A stretch of DNA of 5,808 nucleotides from Spirochaetales bacterium (GTDB lineage Bacteria > Spirochaetota > Spirochaetia > DSM-16054 > Sediminispirochaetaceae), in contig JAASTM010000179.1 in assembly GCA_021767325.1 (NCBI GenBank), positions 1-5,808 of the forward strand, in the 5' to 3' direction. The notes under the pieces are model-generated. The model had not been told where the DNA came from. It did not search any database and was given only the letters and a program-made list of their open reading frames with translations. The stretch's first letter is position 1. Every line of letters begins with the position of its first letter. Made by a program: the position numbers and the translations under genes. Below, piece by piece: positions 3-2,957 of the stretch.

Positions 3-146
3 ACGGCGGATGTGCTGGACGGGTTCTGGTCGGTGGTGGTCGGCGCGGCGGCCGAGGCCTCGGCCAAAGCGGGCCGCCCGATCCGGATAGATGAGCTGCT
101 GCAGGCGGCCGGCATCGATCCGCAGGATCCTGCCCTGCAAAGGTGA
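3..146 (+). CDS. 3' end of an unrecognised gene (partial, 47 residues visible)
   Basis: An open frame runs in from the left edge and stops at TGA 144-146. It encodes 47 residues, ending in a helix-like acidic/Ala-rich stretch (RIDELLQAAGIDPQDPALQR). The very high GC (about 73% in the first 60 bases) and GC-rich third positions fit real coding in a high-GC host gene. I do not recognise the family. The last five codons and the stop fall inside a 30-bp element (131-160) that recurs at 1493-1522, so the C-terminus may have been altered by a rearrangement. The gene points towards the ATPase, but the ATPase has its own promoter, so co-transcription is not required. A chance open frame in GC-rich DNA cannot be fully excluded from so short a piece. 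Confidence 0.5.
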   Translation, partial: TADVLDGFWSVVVGAAAEASAKAGRPIRIDELLQAAGIDPQDPALQR

Positions 147-160
147 TTTAACAAGCCGGA
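131..160 (+). repeat. Element R, copy 1 (30 bp, 25/30 identical to 1493-1522)
   Basis: By eye, an ungapped alignment with 1493-1522 matches at 25 of 30 positions. It begins with TGCCCTGCA (CTGCCCTGCA from base 130) and continues through AGGTGA and AAGCCGG. In copy 2 the right part is the end of vapC: the stop codon plus the codons for Pro-Gly-Leu. In copy 1 the minus-strand equivalent reads Ser-Gly-Leu and the stop is mutated to TTA. Copy 1 therefore looks like a relic of a vapC 3' end placed after the upstream gene. Confidence 0.55.
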
Positions 161-174
161 CAGGTTGGATAAGC

Positions 175-209
175 CGGACAAATTGTAATTGTCATTTACA
201 ATTTGTCCG
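175..209. promoter_or_regulatory. 14-bp perfect inverted repeat upstream of the ATPase gene (candidate operator)
   Basis: CGGACAAATTGTAA (175-188) is exactly complementary to TTACAATTTGTCCG (196-209) across a 7-base loop, TTGTCAT. All 14 pairs were checked base by base. The right arm contains the proposed -35 hexamer of the ATPase promoter, so a bound protein would block transcription. No T-tract follows, which argues against an intrinsic terminator for the upstream gene. The likeliest role is a binding site for a dimeric regulator, possibly the ATPase's own product through its helix-turn-helix-like segment; that last point is inference. Confidence 0.6.
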
Positions 210-223
210 TTCAGTAGTACACT
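195..223 (+). promoter_or_regulatory. Putative sigma-70 promoter for a leaderless ATPase mRNA
   Basis: TTTACA (195-200, 5/6 match to TTGACA) is followed after exactly 17 bases by TACACT (218-223, 4/6 match to TATAAT). A start 7 bases past the -10 falls on base 230, the A of the ATPase ATG. No Shine-Dalgarno sequence is visible in the 20 bases before that ATG. Promoter position and lack of a ribosome site together suggest a leaderless transcript. Confidence 0.5.
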
Positions 224-226
224 ACT
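213..226. repeat. Short inverted repeat AGTAGT-AC-ACTACT over the -10 region
   Basis: AGTAGT (213-218) pairs perfectly with ACTACT (221-226) around two bases. It covers the proposed -10 hexamer and lies four bases from the larger palindrome at 175-209. Together they may form a two-part operator, but a 6-bp inverted repeat can occur by chance. Confidence 0.35.
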
Positions 227-229
227 CTT

Positions 230-1408
230 ATGTATATCGAAAGGATGATTTCCGATCAACTCCTGAGTTTGAGCACCCAATACCCCGTTATTTTTCTTAC
301 CGGTCCGCGGCAATCCGGAAAAACCACGCTTGCCAGGCATCTGTTCCCCGAAAAAACCTATCTCTCTCTGGAAAATCCGGATACGCTTGAATTTGCGCTC
401 TCCGATCCCCGCAGCTTTCTCACTCAGTCAGATACGGGCATGATAATTGATGAAGCTCAGAGAGCACCCCAACTCTTCTCCTATATCCAGGGCTTTGTTG
501 ATGCAGAAAACAAGCCCGGAGCATATATTCTCACCGGGTCGCAAAACTTCCTATTACTGGAAAAAATTTCACAATCTTTGGCCGGCAGAGTAGCCATACT
601 TCGGCTATTACCCTTCAGTTACGCTGAGTATCAGAAGGAGTTCAATACCGAAGATATTGAAAATATAATTCTCAAAGGAATGTACCCTCCCATTCATGAC
701 AGAGGCTTCACCACAAGCGTGTGGTTTGATCAGTACGTCTCGACATATATAGAAAGAGATGTTCGCAGCATCAAAAACATTGAGAATTTGAACACCTTCC
801 AGCGCTTCCTCAAGCTGTGTGCCGGCCGAAGCGGACAAATTCTGAATTATTCCTCTCTAGCCAACGATTGCGGCATCACCCATAATACAGCCCGCTCCTG
901 GATATCAATATTGGAGGCCAGCTACATAGTCGGGCTTTTGCCACCCTATTATGAGAGTTTTAATAAAAGACTGATCAAATCTCCAAAACTCTATTTTCTG
1001 GACAGCGGGCTCTTGTGCTATCTGCTCGGTATTCATTCCCCTGATATTTTTGCCGTGCACCCGCTTAAAGGATCGGTCTTTGAAACCTTCGTATATGCAG
1101 AACTACTCAAAGTATTTTTTAACACAGCGCGAAGGGCGGAACTCTATTTCTGGAGAGATAAAACTGGGCATGAAATCGACTTCATTGCCCCTCAGGCGGA
1201 CACACTCATATCAATAGAGGTGAAGGCTGGAAGAACCATCAATGCAGACTATTTCAAAAACCTGAAATACTTCGCCGCCCTATCGCCATCCACACACCCA
1301 ATAGTCATCTACAACGGCAGCCAAGAGCAGAGAAGAAACGCAGGTCATGTACTGCCTCTCAGCCGGGCAATCAGCTACTTTGCAGAACGGATAAGCTCCA
1401 TCACCTGA
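230..1408 (+). CDS. AAA-family ATPase with C-terminal DUF4143 (nuclease-fold-like) domain
   Basis: This 392-residue cytoplasmic protein has the usual length and layout of the AAA_14/DUF4143 family. Walker A is GPRQSGKTTL at 25-34 and Walker B is MIIDEAQ at 71-77. A sensor-1-like ILTGSQ lies at 100-105 and the family motif LLPFSYAEY at 126-134. A winged-helix-like segment follows at about 205-240 (SSLANDCGITHNTARSWI). The C-terminal domain has ExxxE-type residues near 285-291, then EIDF (D317) and IEVKAG (E330, K332), a PD-(D/E)XK-like arrangement that appears intact. Substrate and cellular role of this family are not settled, so no function is assigned. The start MYIERMI matches the family N-terminus; there is no Shine-Dalgarno sequence, consistent with a leaderless mRNA. 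GC in two sampled lines is about 42%, well below the flanks, which suggests horizontal acquisition. It is convergent with vapC. Confidence 0.9.
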   Translation: MYIERMISDQLLSLSTQYPVIFLTGPRQSGKTTLARHLFPEKTYLSLENPDTLEFALSDPRSFLTQSDTGMIIDEAQRAPQLFSYIQGFVDAENKPGAYILTGSQNFLLLEKISQSLAGRVAILRLLPFSYAEYQKEFNTEDIENIILKGMYPPIHDRGFTTSVWFDQYVSTYIERDVRSIKNIENLNTFQRFLKLCAGRSGQILNYSSLANDCGITHNTARSWISILEASYIVGLLPPYYESFNKRLIKSPKLYFLDSGLLCYLLGIHSPDIFAVHPLKGSVFETFVYAELLKVFFNTARRAELYFWRDKTGHEIDFIAPQADTLISIEVKAGRTINADYFKNLKYFAALSPSTHPIVIYNGSQEQRRNAGHVLPLSRAISYFAERISSIT

Positions 1409-1412
1409 GCTC

Positions 1413-1500
1413 ATATTCCGCAATAAACTACTCTATCCTAACTTTCATCTGATCGCGGATTCGGCGGGTTGCCTGCAGCCGCTCTTTCTGGCTGCCCTGC
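1413..1500 (-). pseudogene. Remnant of an arsC 3' end (degenerate duplicate)
   Basis: Bases 1421-1500 align without gaps to 2144-2223, the 3' end of the ArsC domain, with 68 of 80 identical by my count (85%). In the matching minus-strand frame it reads [20 protein letters not shown], then I-E and a TAG at 1428-1430 where the intact gene has a Glu codon, a few residues before its own stop. The changes are mostly conservative (E to K, I to M, R to K, A to V, K to R), so the copy probably diverged while still coding. Nothing upstream of it in that frame resembles ArsC: similarity stops abruptly at CTGCCCTGC, where element R begins. No start or P-loop is present, so it cannot make a working reductase. 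Confidence 0.8.
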
Positions 1501-1522
1501 ACAGGTGACTTTATAAGCCGGG
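1493..1522 (+). repeat. Element R, copy 2, overlapping the arsC remnant and the end of vapC
   Basis: It matches 131-160 at 25 of 30 positions. Its first 8 bases (1493-1500) are also the last bases of the arsC remnant, so CTGCCCTGC is microhomology shared by three places: 130-138, 1492-1500 and 2215-2223. Its right part contains the vapC stop codon (TTA at 1511-1513 on this strand). This looks like a recombination junction between an arsC 3' end and a vapC 3' end. Confidence 0.55.
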
Positions 1523-1879
1523 AAACACTATCTCCATTTCTCCGGCGATCTTATTCAACCGGCTATCCAATGTCCACAACTGGGTATCCGGGGTCAATGC
1601 AGTTGCCGCCAAAAGGTGCATATCAACATAGCCTAAGCCTCGTCCGTAAAGTGATCTCTTTTCTATGAAATCTAAAACCTCCCGATCGGAAGCTTGCATC
1701 GCTGCAGGAAGATTCGCCAATAGCGTGAGGACTTGCCTGCGATTTTTCAGGTTACCGCAGGCTATCTCCCCCAATACAAAGGGATGCATCAATACAACAC
1801 CACGGTTCAAATAGTCGTGTAACTTATTTTCTTTTCCCCGAAAGTGATCGATCCAGATTGAGGTGTCGGCTAATATCAT
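1511..1879 (-). CDS. vapC: VapC toxin, PIN-domain ribonuclease
   Basis: A 122-residue PIN-domain protein of normal VapC length. It should be a Mg2+-dependent RNase that cuts RNA when not bound by VapB. The four acidic residues of the active site are in their usual places: D5 in ILADTSIWIDH, E38 in FVLGEIACG, D86 in GLGYVDMHLL and D105 in LWTLDSRL. The toxin therefore looks intact. Its ATG overlaps the vapB stop by four bases (ATGA, 1876-1879), the usual sign of translational coupling. Its 3' end lies inside repeat element R and abuts the arsC remnant, and it is convergent with the ATPase gene about 100 bases away. The RNA target cannot be read from sequence. Confidence 0.93.
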   Translation of the reverse strand: MILADTSIWIDHFRGKENKLHDYLNRGVVLMHPFVLGEIACGNLKNRRQVLTLLANLPAAMQASDREVLDFIEKRSLYGRGLGYVDMHLLAATALTPDTQLWTLDSRLNKIAGEMEIVFPGL

Positions 1880-2073
1880 GCCCGTTTCGGCCGTCGTCGA
1901 GGTATATCTTCGATTCCACTTTCGCTACCCGCAAGCCGTGCCAGCCGTCTGGCGCTTTCACGCTCGATGAGGGCCCGGAGCCCTTCATTGATCAAGGCGG
2001 TGCGCTCTTTTGTTCCGGTCAACTCCTGTGCCTCGACCAGCAGTTCATCATCAATATTCAATGTAGTTCGCAT
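1876..2073 (-). CDS. vapB: VapB antitoxin, ribbon-helix-helix type
   Basis: A 65-residue antitoxin with an N-terminal ribbon-helix-helix DNA-binding part (MRTTLNIDDELLVEAQEL, then a helix ending in LRALIERESARRL). The tail GIEDIPRRRPKRA is the segment expected to wrap VapC and reach its active site. This is the common VapB form paired with this VapC subtype. A GAGGTGG ribosome site lies about 8 bases before the ATG at 2071-2073. The gene has its own promoter in the short gap after arsRC. The VapBC complex probably represses this promoter, as in other vapBC operons. Confidence 0.92.
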   Translation of the reverse strand: MRTTLNIDDELLVEAQELTGTKERTALINEGLRALIERESARRLARLAGSESGIEDIPRRRPKRA

Positions 2074-2094
2074 ACTTCACCACCTCATACACTA

Positions 2095-2124
2095 ATTATA
2101 CATCATTTGATGACGTTTTGTCTG
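2095..2124 (-). promoter_or_regulatory. vapBC promoter with internal inverted repeat
   Basis: On the minus strand a perfect TATAAT -10 lies at 2100-2095. A CAGACA -35 (4/6) lies at 2124-2119, with an 18-base spacer. The first 12 spacer bases next to the -10 (2101-2112) form CATCA-AA-TGATG, a 5-bp inverted repeat well placed as a VapB operator. The ATG follows about 22 bases after the -10. The -35 lies 9 bases beyond the arsRC stop codon. Confidence 0.6.
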
Positions 2125-2132
2125 CATGCCAA

Positions 2133-2957
2133 TCAATTCTCAGCAATAAACTCCTCTATCTTGGCCCTGATCTGATCGCGGATCCGCCGCGTAGCCTGCA
2201 GCCGCTCTTCCTGGCTGCCCTGCGTGGAGGATGGATCGTCAAAGGGCCAGTGCAGCCGCGCTCCGCTGCCGGGAAATATCGGACAGCGCTCTTCGGCCTC
2301 CTTGCTGCAGACCGCCACCACAATGTCATAGGAGCGTTTTTCCTTGTGAAACTCAAACACACTGTTGGTGGAGTTCCCGGAGATGTTATAGCCCTCCTCG
2401 CTCATCACCTGTACCACCAGCGGATTCAAGGTGCCCGGCTCCAGTCCGGCGCTTTCGGCTTCAAACCTGTCACCGGCGAGATCGTTCAGAAAGGTTTCGG
2501 CCATCTGGCTGCGGGCGCTGTTGTGGATGCAGACAAACAGCACCTTTTTCTTCTTATTGCTCATGTATACTCCTTTGCCCTGCGGCATTTTGGGGTAAAC
2601 CCATTTGTGAATGGTCTGGCAGGAAAACCCGCGCTCCCGGTAGTCCTGCAATCTGGCGATATCCTCGCGGTAGATATCATCCGAACTGCGCGCCAGCGCC
2701 ACTATCTGCCCCACCAGGCTGTCCTCGGCGCTGTGCCGGCCGGCAATTTGATAATGGGACCACTGGGCCTTCTTATAGCTGCTGATGAGGCCGGCCGAGT
2801 ACAGACGGTGCAGCTGCCGGGAGGTGTTGCTCTGCTTCAAGTCGAGGATCCGCTCGACCTCGCAGCCGCACAGATCCTCAGCTTCCCAGATGAGAGAGAG
2901 GATCCGCATGCGGTTTTGATCGGCCAGTGTTTTCAGCTCTTCAATGATATCTCGCAT
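2133..2957 (-). CDS. arsRC: ArsR-ArsC fusion: arsenite-responsive repressor joined to a thioredoxin-type arsenate reductase
   Basis: This 274-residue protein joins two normally separate ars proteins. Residues 1 to about 113 are an ArsR winged helix with the As(III)-binding Cys pair C30-x-C32 (DLCGCEV) and a recognition helix ([12 protein letters not shown]). Residues 132-274 are a low-molecular-weight-phosphatase-fold ArsC. Its P-loop CIHNSARS at 143-150 has C143, N146 and R149. Resolving cysteines are C217 and C225, and WPFDDP (237-242) carries the general-acid Asp. The three Cys point to thioredoxin coupling; C217 and C225 are 8 residues apart, against 7 in the S. aureus enzyme. The upstream ribosome site is weak (AGGGTAGG), whereas an in-frame internal ATG has a strong one. 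The gene follows acr3 by 28 bases and is probably in the same operon. arsRC fusions are known, for example in Leptospirillum. Confidence 0.93.
2562..2576 (-). promoter_or_regulatory. Internal Shine-Dalgarno and ATG inside arsRC (possible free ArsC start)
   Basis: On the minus strand AAAGGAG (2576-2570), five bases, then ATG (2564-2562) form a near-ideal initiation site, in frame with the fusion. It would start at residue 132 ([12 protein letters not shown]), exactly where free ArsC proteins begin. The codons of the Shine-Dalgarno sequence encode the linker residues G-K-G-V. This is stronger than the site for the full-length protein, so a 143-residue free ArsC may be made alongside the fusion. 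Confidence 0.6.

Follow-up and report, generated by a model that had tools for sequence, protein, structure and literature searches.

The ATPase locus and its repeated gene ends

We analysed a 5,808-nucleotide stretch of DNA from a Spirochaetales bacterium (contig JAASTM010000179.1 of assembly GCA_021767325.1), referred to here as the window, which is apparently a complete metagenome contig. It carries the gene of an AAA_14-DUF4143 ATPase, the PADLOC candidate PDC-S01, next to a vapCB toxin-antitoxin pair, and two short sequences, R and S, each occur twice around these genes. The features concerned are as follows.

3–146, + strand: 3' end of a Gfo/Idh/MocA-type oxidoreductase gene, ending in ALQR and a stop, recognised by its match to the L140 protein
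130–159, + strand: R1, the oxidoreductase 3' end plus intergenic letters (repeat comparison)
153–185, + strand: AAGCCGGACA.. and a partial copy 18 bp downstream, ahead of the ATPase operator (repeat listing)
175–209, unstranded: putative dyad operator of the ATPase gene, 35 bp, with coded letters T206 and C207 and their mirror G177 and A178 (coordinates counted on the sequence)
195–223, + strand: promoter-like pair read off the sequence, TTTACA (195–200) and TACACT (218–223) with a 17-bp spacer
230–1408, + strand: AAA_14-DUF4143 ATPase, PADLOC candidate PDC-S01 (profile matches), with the K311 codon at 1160–1162
1417–1500, − strand: S1, an arsC 3'-end relic with an internal stop codon (repeat comparison)
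1492–1500, + strand: 9-bp microhomology junction CTGCCCTGC, common to S1 and R2
1492–1521, + strand: R2, the second R copy (ALHR and a stop), extending into the vapC stop
1511–1879, − strand: vapC-like PIN-domain toxin (PIN 2.8e-07; NCBIfam VapC under cut-off)
1876–2073, − strand: vapB antitoxin (VapB_antitoxin 3e-16)
2133–2957, − strand: arsR-arsC fusion gene (domain and profile matches)
2140–2223, − strand: S2, the 3' end of the intact arsC part (repeat comparison)

An earlier note, made from the sequence alone, had observed that R and S recur in the same order, with the ATPase gene between the first pair and vapCB between the second, and this arrangement was borne out, the repeat boundaries being refined to those given above. 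The R copies are identical at 26 of 30 positions and the S copies at 71 of 84 (85%), and neither level was reached in any of 200 shuffled windows, a check that the note had proposed for R. When the 9-bp word is removed from R, 17 of the remaining 21 positions still match, a level reached anywhere in the window by 1 of 200 shuffles. The word CTGCCCTGC, in which seven of the nine letters are G or C, is common to the oxidoreductase and arsC genes and is found at three places only (130, 1492 and 2215). Beyond it the S copies match at 5 of 30 positions on the right and the R copies at 5 of 30 on the left. Since similarity ends exactly at CTGCCCTGC, which is present three times, the abutment of S1 and R2 that the note had described is a join within a 9-bp microhomology.

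Judged from their sequence, both repeats are ordinary gene ends, R being the oxidoreductase 3' end with a few intergenic letters and S the arsC 3' end. R opens with 17 nt that make up the final codons and stop of the preceding gene, reading ALQR in R1 and, in the same register, ALHR in R2, and residues 4–35 of the oxidoreductase fragment show a 63% match to a 415-aa GFO_IDH_MocA protein in L140. S1 holds an internal TAG and does not have the arsC stop. By a hand count from which the last codon was omitted, S1 and S2 show 15 nucleotide differences in aligned codons, nine of them at third positions (chance 0.03); at ACC and TAT, two outgroup arsC genes have the letters of S1, from which S2 departs. 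Because 9 of the 15 differences are at third positions, descent of the copies from two arsC lineages, with S1 decaying afterwards, is favoured over recent decay of one copy, with the reservation that 80 bp is too short to settle the matter. The note's proposal of an old event, or of one that passed through a related strain, is supported.

The ATPase itself gave a full-length match to the PDC-S01 profile PDLC04790 (E 1.9e-110, residues 2–378), with an AAA_14 domain (9.3e-29) and a DUF4143 domain (1.5e-52), a combination that we take to be COG1373. The Walker A/B and PD-(D/E)XK residues K31, D74, E75, D317, E330 and K332 are all present, and they are kept in 212–215 of 215 aligned proteins (the 81 seed and 134 held-out proteins described below). 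In a predicted structure (mean predicted local distance difference test score, pLDDT, 91), residue 311 lies in a hairpin loop between strands 306–310 and 315–322, the latter being the catalytic strand that holds Asp317. A PDB sequence search with the ATPase returned nothing, and a search of a viral structure library placed AAA+ and replication-factor-like proteins on top, with no close full-length match. The archaeal AAA+ ATPases 2QEN and 2FNA offer a comparison that barely tests the C-terminal nuclease-like part of the window protein, in which residue 311 lies. The published account of PDC-S01 presents it as the fusion of an ATPase with the PD-(D/E)XK superfamily and ranks it as the fourth most common defence in prokaryotes; for most PDCs of the core defensome it gives validation as pending (PMC12988326). 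The window protein shares the profile, the domain order and the PD-(D/E)XK residues of that family.

The promoter dyad and residue 311

The dyad at 175–209 spans the −35 box and is followed by the −10-like box and then the ATG, so placed that the window ATPase transcript is predicted to start at about the ATG and to be leaderless. We compared this arrangement in 81 seed loci (the window plus the 80 best among 106 relatives identified) and in 134 held-out loci from three sampled phyla with few seed loci, namely an archaeal phylum and the phyla to which a Bacteroidetes locus and a Brocadiaceae locus belong; the closest seed relative of a held-out protein was 52% identical at the median and up to 97% identical in the archaeal group. 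The operator core or a close variant of it was present in 79 of the 81 seed loci (the exceptions being L070 and L080), and among the seed loci letters 10–14 covary between the two arms (z 5.6 to 8.3 against re-dealt arms). A dyad score of at least 8 was reached in 61/81 seed and 84/134 held-out loci; when the letters of the upstream sequences were shuffled, 2% and 1% of the sequences reached it. After the dyad, a −10-like box (at least four of six letters) was found in 64/79 seed loci versus 34% after shuffling, and in 44/79 the aligned first codon stands 3–6 nt past that box, a spacing that suggests leaderless transcripts across the ATPase family. The exact core pattern occurred in 17 of 50 seed genomes searched, at one place each, and 16 of these 17 places closely precede an ATPase gene of this kind, the exception being the L160 place in G001; the reversed pattern, used as a control, had no place in the 50 genomes.

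Two variants of this layout were seen. In gammaproteobacterial loci (L009, L018, L024, L026, L040, L047 and similar ones) the leader is longer, and a ATGTAAAGC-like stretch recurs in it, after the promoter and before the start codon. The distant homolog L307, on an Azotobacter chroococcum plasmid, carries the dyad GGTGTAATTTC..GAAATTACACC immediately ahead of its ATG, in a register unlike the rest. On an Emticicia oligotrophica plasmid (L301), a lone ATPase gene with a code-fitting operator lies between an L-ribulose-5-phosphate 4-epimerase gene and araA, in opposite transcription.

The identity of residue 311 in the ATPase predicts arm letters 12 and 13: asparagine goes with TA, lysine with TC, serine with CA and arginine with CC. 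In the 79 seed loci the agreement was 20/20 for N, 11/12 for K, 12/15 for S and 22/29 for R, with other residues in three, and the window conforms with K311 and TC. When restricted to N/K/R/S loci with a score of at least 8, 49 of 58 seed loci were as coded. For the held-out loci the dyads were located by symmetry at fixed spacing only, blind to the letters; the code was obeyed in 65 of all 89 N/K/R/S loci, where 5000 shuffles gave a mean of 21.8 and a maximum of 37. The remaining 45 loci in the set of 134 have other residues, and among the 84 loci with a good dyad the figure rose to 51 of 59 (shuffled mean 16.7, maximum 29).

Protein columns were then ranked in sets of dyads with at least 5/6 symmetric letters and proteins below 70% identity. 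For both letters jointly, column 311 came first in the seed set (275 columns), in the held-out set (328) and in all loci (323), where its z of 14.5 compares with 6.2 for the next column; with perfect dyads the values were 12.2 and 4.2. A test on close pairs ranked it 1st of 286, 1st of 266 with stricter dyads and 2nd of 291 with looser ones. The rule also holds in many held-out loci that do not carry the inner ATTGACAAT, and because of these loci the inner part of the dyad seems, on sequence evidence, to follow the type of host promoter, and the outer letters seem to follow the protein as an address.

Paralogs within one genome were also compared. Same-genome paralogs with N and S at residue 311 (for example L190/L258 and L191/L245) have the half-sites ATTGTA and ATTGCA, respectively; identical half-sites were found in 1 of 19 within-genome pairs versus a background of 7.9%.

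Self-addressing as a candidate mechanism

The covariation of residue 311 with the arm letters argues for a mechanism in which PDC-S01 is probably self-addressed: its PD-(D/E)XK domain would read the dyad over its own promoter, residue 311 would set two base pairs in each half-site, and infection would release the silencing. The protein would bind the dyad as a dimer through its nuclease-like domain, and once bound it would presumably repress its own gene; our guess is that repression would lift once phage or foreign DNA engages the protein. In the part of the text available to us, the published description of PDC-S01 mentions neither an operator nor self-recognition (PMC12988326), and we found no operator described in the literature on the DUF4143/PDC-S01 family, in a search whose coverage largely excluded subscription papers and preprints.

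The letters might instead be read by another host regulator that binds the dyad, with residue 311 merely travelling with the lineage. Phylogeny inflates couplings of this kind, and in the pair and branch tests column 311 is joined by some others; however, column 311 stands far above all others in the joint ranking, the code is kept in many held-out loci after loss of the inner dyad sequence, and the core pattern was met outside the promoters of this gene once in 50 genomes. We therefore regard a host regulator as a rather improbable reader of the dyad.

Several observations weigh against self-addressing. A parsimony test for changes on the same branch was weak (12 shared versus 6.3 expected, P 0.011), and column 311 was outscored in it by several others. 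With the held-out loci alone, column 311 was fifth for letter 13 taken singly and 13th of 245 in the close-pair test, and many held-out proteins are mutually close (27 pairs above 95%). Arginine is the loosest residue of the code, with 3/5 as coded in the held-out set. Of eight plasmid homologs, drawn from 40 listed of 400 matched, four follow the rule (two of these from one strain), three are without a dyad, and in one a perfect dyad is present but agrees with the rule only in another register. A distant T. thermophilus gene, which we take to be TT_P0211, has no dyad. Distant subfamilies do not all follow the residue-311 rule.

A hint that the family is inducible comes from T. thermophilus, in which the DUF4143 gene TT_P0211 is reported to be up 6.6-fold with plasmid DNA in an Argonaute-bearing strain (PMC4406477), though its subfamily seems to be without this type of operator.

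How the ATPase may have reached the locus

The most economical model for the four scars is addition of the ATPase in a single event. A segment of the allelic locus of a related strain, running from the oxidoreductase end through the ATPase to the arsC end, would have been taken up, and its arsC end (S1) would have been joined to the resident oxidoreductase end (R2) inside CTGCCCTGC. The other side would presumably have been anchored within the oxidoreductase gene by ordinary homologous recombination, either at R1 or to its left. By such homology-facilitated illegitimate recombination (HFIR) the ATPase would have been added beside vapCB with vapCB kept, and all four scars would date from one event; the gene may be movable in this way since it appears self-contained, with its own promoter inside the dyad. 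We give a probability of roughly 55% to the combined explanation, in which an ATPase segment from a related strain was added by HFIR and the ATPase binds the dyad and represses itself.

The short microhomology join that HFIR leaves at one end is found here as the 9-bp CTGCCCTGC at 1492–1500. HFIR has been proposed for the immunity-gene arrays of the type VI secretion system (T6SS) of V. cholerae, in which a module is added and the older immunity gene is retained downstream (PMC5361080). In both cases, as far as that account goes, the new module lies beside the anchor and the old gene is retained downstream (PMC5361080); the window differs in that its flanks are an oxidoreductase end and an arsC end, and in that the duplicated arsC end marks the join. 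The retained module has the makeup of a VapBC pair, a PIN toxin adjoining a VapB-type antitoxin, with the difference that its VapC scores 29.1 against the NCBIfam VapC equivalog cut-off of 80.

To the right of the arsR-arsC fusion gene lie ACR3 and then an MFS transporter that is 72% like its M. aestuarii counterpart, a likeness which makes the source a relative of Marispirochaeta. The fused arsR and arsC form a single 274-aa protein, and Alkalispirochaeta and other Spirochaetota have entries for two-part proteins of similar length. The contig closes (5650–5808) with the tail of a second PIN-domain-like protein (E 0.00056, under the Pfam cut-off).

Related loci were sought at several distances. 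The closest reachable arsC loci, L138 and L139, are 73–76% alike (order of G447, 4 genomes), and in both the arsC faces another gene (DUF362 in L138) with neither ATPase nor vapCB between; the best arsC in a phylum sample of 392 genomes was 65%. As for a close relative of the locus, plasmids gave one match of 78.6% over 2% of the window, and viral contigs carrying the ATPase gave none. A strain with just the upstream gene, R, vapCB and arsRC, which the note had suggested looking for, was not among the genomes that could be reached. Closer entries exist at the protein level, namely the MFS relative P0122 (94%) and the arsC P0003 (85%). P0003 was considered as a donor of S1 and ruled out, its C-terminus being different.

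Three points count against addition by HFIR. Neither a donor nor a recipient allele was found in the phylum sample, the order of G397 (46 genomes) or the order of G447; the anchoring crossover would fall outside the window or at its edge; and HFIR is described as rare compared with homologous recombination (PMC5361080). A further objection is that the window could be a chimera, two strain variants of one locus having been fused in library preparation, amplification or assembly. The window is apparently the whole contig, the junction shares merely 9 bp, and the repeats are 85% alike, as strains might be. On the other hand, S1, with its internal stop and without the arsC stop, looks like an old relic and is unlike the arsC of a live strain, and assembly overlaps are usually longer than 9 bp. 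We consider such an artefact distinctly unlikely.

The earlier note had favoured a tandem duplication of R-vapCB-S in situ through the 9-bp word, after which the ATPase replaced the first vapCB. The geometry of the junction is exactly that of a duplication, and ATAAGCCGG, present at the vapC end and again immediately before the ATPase operator, could have served the later replacement, which is possible in itself. However, this course needs two events where a single addition explains the four scars, so that the replacement is unneeded, and the S differences partly resemble coding drift in both copies. The sole trace of a first vapCB is AAGCCGG, in which the note had seen the relic of a vapC 3' end within R1; the letters are indeed present at 153, but they recur 18 bp further on at 171, directly before the operator, and the relic is ambiguous for that reason. 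Duplication followed by replacement thus keeps a minor though appreciable share of the probability.

The suggestion that the locus is a small exchange site at which stress modules are swapped was not supported. Two different modules do lie between the same pair of repeats, as would be expected of cassettes moved by a site-specific system; against this, R and S are ordinary gene 3' ends, no second cargo was found at the locus, and the two closest reachable arsC loci carry neither module. Dedicated sites were thus not found, and no recombinase appeared among the Pfam matches of the eight window proteins tested, the rest of the genome being outside the search. A dedicated exchange site is accordingly very improbable.

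If ATPase addition by HFIR is the right account, the scars show how a self-contained gene can join a resident module in one step. If self-addressing is true, an outer address combined with host-type inner letters would let the gene function by itself at any site to which recombination carries it, and a nuclease-type fold would be serving as a specific repressor of its own gene. Should the code be right, it would provide the first testable mechanism for an uncharacterised and very common family, specifying the DNA that is recognised, the silencing and the residue that decides.

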